Shown here one piece after another: positions 13,942-15,028 of a stretch of DNA of 64,000 nt (within the stretch, counting starts at the first letter, position 1; the number at the start of each line of letters is the position of its first letter). The position numbers and the translations under genes were made by a program. Source of the DNA: Flectobacillus major DSM 103 (GTDB taxonomy: Bacteria > Bacteroidota > Bacteroidia > Cytophagales > Spirosomataceae); NCBI RefSeq assembly GCF_000427405.1, contig NZ_KE386491.1:3207001-3271000 (forward strand), read 5' to 3'. The notes under the pieces are model-generated. The model was not told where the DNA came from and ran no database searches. It was given only the letters and a program-made list of their open reading frames with translations.

Positions 13942-14559
13942 CTATTTTTCAAGGATAACGTATGAATTTTTCGCTCCTGGTACTGAACCTGACACTACGA
14001 TAAGGTTTTTGTCAGCATAAACTTTCAATACTTGCAAGTTTTGAACTTTTACGCGATTACCACCTGTACGACCTGCCATGCGAAGACCTTTGAATACACG
14101 AGATGGGAATGAACAAGCACCAATTGAACCTGGGTGGCGACCGCGGTTGTGCTGTCCGTGAGTTTGACCTCCTACACCACTAAATCCGTGACGCTTAACA
14201 ACACCTTGGAAACCTTTACCTTTTGATGTTCCGATTGCATCGATGAAGTCACCTTCTGCAAATAACTCTGCCGATACGGTTTCTCCTAAAGCTAATGGGC
14301 TTTCAAAAGATTTGAATTCTACAAGCTTCTTTTTGGGAGTTGTGCCTGCTTTTTTGAAGTGACCTAATAATGGCCTAGAAGTGTGTTTTTCCTTCTTCTC
14401 ACCATAGCCTAACTGAATAGCACTATAGCCTTCTTTTTCTACTGTTTTTACTTGCGTTACTACACAAGGACCGGCTTCAATCAGCGTACAAGGGATGGCA
14501 GCACCATCAGCATTGTAGAGGCTGGTCATACCGATTTTCTTTCCGATAATTCCAGACAT
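13942..14559 (-). CDS. rplC: 50S ribosomal protein L3
   Basis: L3 is an assembly initiator of the large subunit. The 205-residue protein starts [20 protein letters not shown] and carries the loop [26 protein letters not shown] with the conserved glutamine region that is methylated in some bacteria, then [16 protein letters not shown]. It is the first gene of this cluster: rpsJ, which usually precedes it, is not here. A Bacteroidota-type promoter lies about 95 bases upstream. Confidence 0.97.
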
Positions 14560-14652: not shown

Positions 14653-14683
14653 CAAAGGTCGGAATTTTATTTGGCACTAACAA
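14653..14683 (-). promoter_or_regulatory. Promoter of the ribosomal protein cluster
   Basis: Minus strand: TTG (14681-14683), 20 bases, then GACCTTTG (14653-14660), which matches TAnnTTTG except for the first base. Transcription should start near 14647, leaving an 87-base leader before rplC. The ten bases TTTGCAGTCC at the -7 element recur exactly in the promoter at 14999-15028. Confidence 0.6.
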
Positions 14684-14693
14684 AAAAGTACAC

Positions 14694-14718
14694 AAAAAAA
14701 TTCTCAAAACTATTTGAG
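14694..14718 (-). terminator. Intrinsic terminator of the candidate RNA
   Basis: On the minus strand CTCAAA, a 4 nt loop and TTTGAG are followed by AA and seven T. It lies just upstream of the -33 element of the rplC promoter, so it separates two transcription units. Confidence 0.65.
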
Positions 14719-14993
14719 CGACAGAAAATTGAGGGATAAAGCGACAAGAAATGTGCGGACGGGCTTATACCCGTGAGACGAGTCCTGTGCAGCTTAATAC
14801 TCAACTTTGCAAACTGGGCATTCAGTAAAGCAAGCCAGTATCAGTTCTGACACTATTTGCGACAAACTTGATTAGGCAATAACCTTGTGTTGTCTTTTCC
14901 TATGCTAGCACTCCAAATATTTCAACTTACTTAATTTCTTGCCGAGTTCTGCCAACCCTTTGCAAGACCATGTGAATTGGGGTGCCTTAATGG
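14694..14993 (-). ncRNA. Candidate small RNA, about 300 nt, unassigned
   Basis: The unit runs on the minus strand from a full-match promoter (14999-15028) to an intrinsic terminator (14694-14718) with no convincing reading frame between. Near its 5' end GCACCCCAA (14976-14968 on the transcript) can pair with TTGGAGTGC further on, one mismatch, enclosing the first 80 bases; near its 3' end ACGGG/CCCGT (14759-14774) forms a 5 bp hairpin with a 6 nt loop. I see none of the marker motifs of SRP RNA, tmRNA or RNase P RNA. 6S RNA or a lineage-specific RNA are possible; a terminated leader of the ribosomal cluster is the main alternative. Confidence 0.5.
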
Positions 14994-14998
14994 GACTG

Positions 14999-15028
14999 CA
15001 AAATTAGAGAATAGTTTTTGAAATACAA
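14999..15028 (-). promoter_or_regulatory. Bacteroidota-type promoter of the candidate RNA
   Basis: Minus strand: TTG (15026-15028), 19 bases, TAATTTTG (14999-15006). Both elements match the phylum consensus exactly. The predicted start is near 14993. Confidence 0.7.

Follow-up and report, generated by a model that had tools for sequence, protein, structure and literature searches.

A conserved structured RNA upstream of rplC in Flectobacillus and related genera, and its possible role as a leader of the ribosomal protein operon

Directly upstream of rplC, the gene for ribosomal protein L3, Flectobacillus major carries a conserved structured RNA, hereafter termed type A, at 14695–14998 on the minus strand of the window (the whole stretch of 64,000 nucleotides that was analysed), as judged from conservation within the genus and the recurrence of its motifs in 10 genera. 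The reading preferred here, to which an even chance of being correct is assigned, is that this putatively transcribed RNA constitutes a lineage-specific, cis-acting leader or attenuator of the rplC operon. Read on the minus strand from high to low coordinates, the locus is composed of a promoter, approximately 300 nt of RNA sequence, a terminator-like hairpin, a second promoter-like element, and the rplC open reading frame (13942–14559, minus strand), the constant downstream neighbour of type A; the length of about 300 nt applies only if the RNA ends at the weak terminator described below. The original prediction of a free-standing RNA gene is partly confirmed in its observations and partly supported in its interpretation. 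For instance, the claimed stretch of about 300 nt without a convincing reading frame is borne out by the open reading frame list of the window, and the proposal of an RNA of unknown family tied to ribosome synthesis is supported by conservation, covariation, and the constant position before rplC. The term free-standing suits the RNA as far as its own promoter, recognized in the sequence, is concerned, but not with regard to a conserved terminator of its own, since the one present is weak and confined to the genus, and the constant linkage to rplC favours a leader instead.

The fold of the single RNA sequence is not striking (z of −1.40, with 6 of 100 shuffles equally good), and the evidence is therefore comparative. 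Similarly, 3 copies of the exact pattern of the RNA promoter are present in the 64 kb window, as compared with 1.9 on average in 20 block-shuffled versions, which makes it weak evidence when taken alone; because this pattern is not rare, the terminator-like hairpin is weak, and the fold is unremarkable, the case rests on the relatives. Flectobacillus, which belongs to the Spirosomataceae in GTDB, is placed in the Flectobacillaceae in the NCBI taxonomy. The RNA stretch is matched in 5/5 Flectobacillus genomes, its own included; among the four others, three show a full-length match at 79–80% identity and the fourth a match in two pieces. Beyond these close strains, where the original prediction had advised looking for conservation ahead of rplC, type A is present in 10 of the 36 sampled genera of the family (g1, g5, g9, g10, g12, g20, g28, g30, g33, and g36), a call that leaves aside one genus (g25) whose rplC sits at a contig end. 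When 84,980 species were scanned with a strict pattern, 52 contigs were recovered, with titles naming Flectobacillus, Arcicella, Pseudarcicella, Aquirufa, Siphonobacter, Sandaracinomonas, or uncultured relatives, among which one Cellulophaga title and several Spirosoma fluviale titles look misnamed; all 52 score 63.6–94.1 bits with R1, a model of the 3′ domain core. When the own locus and one more are added, rplC lies on the same strand in 52 of the 54 loci, with 155–238 nt from the end of the core to the ATG, while in the remaining two the stretch ends before enough recognizable rplC is reached. The gene on the other side is less faithful: among 31 loci, the GMC gene precedes the RNA only within Flectobacillus, so that the upstream neighbour changes and rplC stays. 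Searches of whole genomes with R1 gave hits in 9/291 and 6/395 genomes, and matches outside the family (22–26 bits) were taken as chance. These searches scored only 12–17 candidates per genome and thus give a weak negative, for which reason surveys of the rplC-upstream DNA were used instead; within that limit, no convincing copy of type A was seen away from rplC, and a search of the plasmid collection returned no match.

Compensatory changes, which the original prediction had proposed to seek in alignments of relatives, are found in both the 5′ and the 3′ domain. The core of the 3′ domain (14783–14853, minus strand), as described by model R1, comprises helices P2 (GUGUCAG/CUGCAC), P3 (GAUACU/AGUAUU), P4 (CUUGC/GCAAAG), and P5 (CUG-AAUGCC-CAG). 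Across 27 sequences chosen for diversity, P2–P5 reach a covariation score of 0.387 versus 0.151 for shuffled alignments and at most 0.140 for slid controls, whereas the counts of changed pairs and of pair types exceed the shuffles less clearly, being reached by 8/500 and 33/500 of them, respectively. P3 is paired in 100% of cells and has two pairs changed on both sides; P4 is paired in 89.5% of cells and has all five of its pairs so changed; P5, paired in 81.5% of cells, closes an invariant AAUGCC loop. In P2, no pair changed on both sides among the same 27 sequences. RNAalifold predicts P3–P5 unaided and finds neither P2 nor P6, and the 3′ domain in the form of P3–P5 with its invariant loop is supported by the covariation of the aligned sequences. 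In the 5′ domain (14907–14986, minus strand), the outer stem P0 joins 14986–14977 with 14916–14907. These arms correspond to the pairing GCACCCCAA/TTGGAGTGC that had been proposed to run from end to end; the arms do pair, but they close only the 5′ domain (14986–14907) rather than the whole RNA. When the arms of P0 were swapped with those of other genera, the fraction of swaps at least as good was no more than 0.11 in 22 of 29 sequences and 0.18–0.64 in the other seven (30 sequences had been selected, one of them incomplete). Inside P0 lies the P1 hairpin (14937–14967, minus strand), in which UCUUGC/GCAAGA is followed by GGGUU-GGCAG-AACUC with a nearly invariant loop, and which carries the near-invariant GGUUGGCAGAACU. 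Its closing pair is seen as GC, AU, UA, UG, CG, and GU and is standard in 42/42 sequences, a count that omits 3 of the 45 distinct sequences (two incomplete ones and L124, with a variant loop). The outer and flanking part of P1 pairs clearly better with its own arms than with swapped ones in Flectobacillus and Siphonobacter, and not in Aquirufa. Pair variation and arm swaps in the sequences thus support the 5′ domain, with P0, P1, and loop GGCAG, by covariation.

The strand AAGCUGCACAGGA and its possible partner UCUUGUCGCUU would form helix P6 (14739–14795, minus strand) around hairpin P7 (14774–14759). The latter is the ACGGG/CCCGT hairpin of the original prediction, and it recurs in relatives in the compensatory versions ACGAG/CUCGU and ACAGG/CCUGU. 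P6 was considered as a covarying terminator stem and rejected, as by column counts it is paired in 79.9% of cells, the same as in shuffles, and it is consequently left without covariation support. P2 and P6 also draw on one common strand, and hence the full formation of both together is impossible. The intrinsic terminator with seven T that had been claimed is present as the hairpin CUCAAA-UAGU-UUUGAG followed by seven T (14694–14718, minus strand); its stem is a weak, A/U-rich one of −5.3 kcal/mol, however, and it occurs in this genus only.

The full-match promoter TTG-N19-TAATTTTG that had been reported ahead of the RNA is confirmed at 15028–14999 on the minus strand, with TTG at 15028–15026 and TAATTTTG at 15006–14999, and the folded type A RNA begins right after it. 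In a survey of 30 representatives, of which 29 could be read upstream of the RNA, the RNA is preceded in 23/29 by TAnnTTTG without mismatch and a TTG at a spacing of 19 or 20, in 5/29 (Siphonobacter) by a version with one mismatch, and in L089 by none. A probable promoter for rplC, TTG-N20-GACCTTTG with one mismatch to TAnnTTTG, then GCAGTCCG, lies behind the RNA at 14653–14683 (minus strand). Between the RNA and rplC, GACCTTTG or GAACTTTG, each with one mismatch, is found with TTG at the proper spacing in 4/4 Flectobacillus, g10, g28, Pseudarcicella, and 6/7 Arcicella, GACCTTTG is found without TTG in g9 and L094, and TACTTTTG is found without TTG in 6/6 Siphonobacter. As a result of these sequence matches, a separate rplC promoter behind the RNA is considered probable in Flectobacillus, Pseudarcicella, Arcicella, and Siphonobacter. 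None of the nine Aquirufa and Sandaracinomonas representatives has, between the RNA and the ATG, a TAnnTTTG (no more than one mismatch allowed) that is preceded at 18–21 nt by a TTG, and all nine (9/9) carry TTG-N19-TACCTTTG before the RNA. In these nine, only one-mismatch strings without TTG occur between the RNA and rplC, in Aquirufa mostly TAGCCTTG, inside a hairpin that precedes the ATG, and Aquirufa may therefore have an unusual rplC promoter there. Both promoters of the window run into GCAGTCC right after TTTG (15006–14993 and 14660–14647, minus strand), TTTGCA followed by much the same letters is a repeated feature of rplC promoters across the order, and exact matches of 17–20 nt to this start region are seen elsewhere in family genomes, which suggests a start-region element common to both promoters and others.

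The identity of the RNA was sought among known families. The scan that the original prediction had called for, with the covariance models of Rfam 15 (4227 families), gave no match in the window at gathering scores, and the type A RNA matches no known family; no SRP RNA, tmRNA, or RNase P RNA was matched either, in agreement with the absence of their marker motifs noted before. In a 900-nt region, five sub-threshold Rfam matches appeared, all to families of eukaryotes or enterobacteria by name. The suggestion of a 6S-like RNA is not supported. A divergent 6S-type RNA that binds RNA polymerase would fill a vacancy, in that the own genome gave no Rfam 6S match at E up to 10 (the control was matched in 8/14 genomes) and its only 6S-Flavo match is a below-threshold one of 20 bits located elsewhere. 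However, type A shares with 6S-Flavo (RF01685) and 6S RNA (RF00013) its non-coding nature and differs from both in sequence, structure match, and fold. It matches neither family at E up to 5 and is seen in 10 genera only, and in place of the single rod with an open bubble that is the shape of 6S RNA, it has two domains with invariant hairpin loops, so that this identity is very improbable. Equally little credence is given to a guide or chaperone RNA that would pair with 23S rRNA, near helix 97, through the three invariant loops. Such a role is suggested by AACUGAUAC, UUGGCAGAAC, and AAUGCCC, which exactly complement three neighbouring segments of the 23S rRNA of the own genome, and by one RNA position that tracks the rRNA, by eye, in some genera (Pseudarcicella and Aquirufa). 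Against it, the best single matches between RNA and 23S rRNA are at chance level (p of 0.24 and 0.55), the target differs from one type A carrier to another (GUCCUGCCAA in G003 and GUUCCGCCAG in Siphonobacter, the latter having lost most of the pairing) whereas the loops remain constant, and an antisense function at this site was rejected on these grounds. Mimicry of rRNA gave no signal either, local alignment to the own 23S rRNA, over the 3′ part that could be read, being at chance level. Lastly, conserved promoter or operator DNA, or a small protein gene, could account for the DNA-level conservation within Flectobacillus, and AUGCCC in the P5 loop might start a very short frame; this reading is disfavoured by the compensatory base changes in P1, P3, P4, P5, and P7, and in view of such covariation in the sequences it is scarcely credible.

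The main choice is between a leader and an RNA that acts in trans. A leader is favoured by the constant linkage to rplC, the weak and genus-only terminator, and the lack of a promoter-like pair before rplC in Aquirufa and Sandaracinomonas, and type A is, like the r-leaders, a structured, covarying RNA upstream of a ribosomal-protein gene. The alternative, which appears possible though doubtful, is a free-standing small RNA that ends before the rplC promoter and is co-regulated with ribosome synthesis, its proximity to rplC being inherited or serving joint expression. It would agree with the own promoter of type A, with the probable separate rplC promoter in Flectobacillus, Pseudarcicella, Arcicella, and Siphonobacter, with the terminator-like hairpin at the end of the RNA in Flectobacillus, and with the type B RNAs described below, which end in a strong terminator that is followed by a new promoter; invariant loops, to judge from their sequence, would suit the binding of a partner. 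For most type A genera, Flectobacillus among them, a probable rplC promoter lies behind the RNA, so that transcription of rplC does not depend on the RNA there, a point against the leader. Nevertheless, the weak genome-wide search found no convincing copy away from rplC, the upstream neighbour of the RNA changes, and both the terminator and the situation in Aquirufa speak against a transcript that must end before rplC. The two roles could both hold if some transcripts stop and others read through.

As a cis-acting leader, type A would be transcribed from its own promoter towards rplC, and transcription attenuation within it would set how much transcript continues into rplC and the later genes. 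The invariant loops GGCAG, CAGAACU, and AAUGCC may be the binding sites of a ligand, for which analogy points to one of the ribosomal proteins encoded in the operon, for example L3 or L4; the S10 leader of E. coli is bound by L4. The switching strand may be AAGCUACACAAGA, which would pair with either GUGUCAG (in P2) or UCUUGUCGCUU (in P6), and in Aquirufa its partner may instead be the 3′ arm of a hairpin, terminator-like in form, that immediately precedes rplC. Aquirufa and Sandaracinomonas have a conserved, clade-specific hairpin, CUUACAA..UUGUAAG, before the rplC ATG, with a U-rich tail in most Aquirufa and not in Sandaracinomonas, and in the form CUUACAAC..UUGUAAG (L049, L054, L067, and other Aquirufa) it shows a compensatory change from U-A to C-G in L067 and L086. 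In 5 of the 6 sequences listed (L047, L049, L057, L054, and L067, but not L055), no other downstream segment pairs with the switching strand as well as the 3′ arm of this hairpin does, although L067 alone shows a pairing superior to that of every swapped control. Flectobacillus, Arcicella, and Siphonobacter would have kept or gained a further promoter downstream of the RNA, so that in these genera only part of rplC expression would pass through the RNA.

The slot before rplC is occupied differently in other members of the family. Of the 99 family genomes in which rplC was matched, 33, usually a single one for each genus, were sampled for the DNA upstream of it, and the slot holds type A in 6, a second type (B) in 20, and a third (C) in 7, one type B locus also fitting the loose type C pattern; the type B and C loci are L101–L123, L125, L126, L130, and L131. 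Type B has the layout GGUGAAGGUCC-hairpin-GGAAACCACAUCUGA followed further on by GGUCAGRUGU and a terminator, and its exact pattern is found in 0/18 type A genomes, 6/6 type B genomes, and 0/4 type C genomes. Type C carries GAAGUCG-hairpin-GAAACC and contains several conserved blocks, with no obvious terminator by eye. Type B resembles type A in its position, in a promoter-like sequence before it in many loci, and in strands with alternative partners that suggest attenuation; unlike type A, it has the GGUGAAGGUCC-hairpin-GGAAACCACAUCUGA core and a strong terminator, and types B and C are treated here as types separate from type A. The type B terminator covaries (0.318 versus 0.229, a score that 0/500 shuffles reach), and its 5′ arm UCAGRUGU, nearly frozen over the 20 loci, is complementary to the upstream ACAUCUGA. 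The resulting alternative helix is paired in 95.6% of cells versus 95.4% in shuffles, with one compensatory change (L104), and it shows no excess, the two strands being almost invariant; in its extension, own arms are little better than swapped ones (−2.74 versus −2.33 kcal/mol). In its sequence, a terminator whose 5′ arm can also pair upstream is an attenuator layout. In 15 of the 20 type B loci, rpsJ lies upstream, and the RNA stands between rpsJ and rplC. In an Rfam comparison of 20 loci with types A, B, and C, nothing reached the gathering score; when six type B and C loci, three of them type B, were compared at E up to 1, three sub-threshold matches appeared, none of them to an r-leader or to another family credible for these RNAs.

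None of the three types was found in 40 loci (L134–L173) from 20 other families of the order, in which the best R1 score was 12.7 bits. In those families, rpsJ, where adjacent, is usually followed, by eye, by a hairpin with a T-run and then an rplC promoter, and many of the loci have a TTTGCA-type rplC promoter even with rpsJ adjacent; with an rplC promoter of its own, the rplC side looks like a transcription unit separate from the rpsJ side. A broader and rather unlikely proposition would be that, within one family, the rplC slot has been filled by three different structured RNAs (A, B, and C), often with their own promoter, through a regulator that was replaced or rebuilt in place more than once. 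These RNAs would then be either leaders equipped with a switch that links the rpsJ side of the ribosomal operons to the rplC side or small RNAs of ribosome synthesis that are unknown elsewhere.

Structurally unrelated leaders for one ribosomal protein have been described in different lineages for S4 and L13, with Bacteroidia and Flavobacteria included, in the r-leader compilation of PMC7247131. In its r-leader table passage, the sole entry that names rplC is an L4 candidate of Archaeoglobi, and no rplC leader is given for Bacteroidota. Like the r-leaders represented by E. coli S10 and by the S4 (Bacteroidia/Flavobacteria) and L13 (Bacteroidetes) candidates of that compilation, type A is structured, covarying, lineage-specific, and situated upstream of a ribosomal-protein operon. 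It also shares with them the lack of an obvious resemblance to rRNA, as is often the case for ribosomal leaders according to PMC2864571, which lists Bacteroidetes motifs including 6S-Flavo. Type A differs from r-leaders in its own promoter and, in several genera, a probable second promoter before the first gene, features known here from sequence alone. An S10 leader candidate has been reported in Peptostreptococcaceae in PMC11109978, the main text of which contains no occurrence of rplC, Bacteroid, Spirosoma, or Cytophag, and among the matches listed in a full-text literature search for Flectobacillus or Spirosoma rplC leaders, no title concerns the type A RNA. Type A is a concrete RNA with defined loops and helices in the cultivated genera Flectobacillus, Arcicella, Aquirufa, and Siphonobacter, and, judging by where it lies, it may have a part in adjusting the production of ribosomes. 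Types A, B, and C, together with the families of the order that have none of them, provide a natural comparison set for how ribosomal regulators arise and get replaced.

A minor observation concerns the P5 loop, where AAUGCC plus the following C contains AUGCCC (14821–14819, minus strand), either a possible minimal upstream frame or a coincidence. This frame reads MPSLQS in the window and ends, by eye, within a few codons in relatives.
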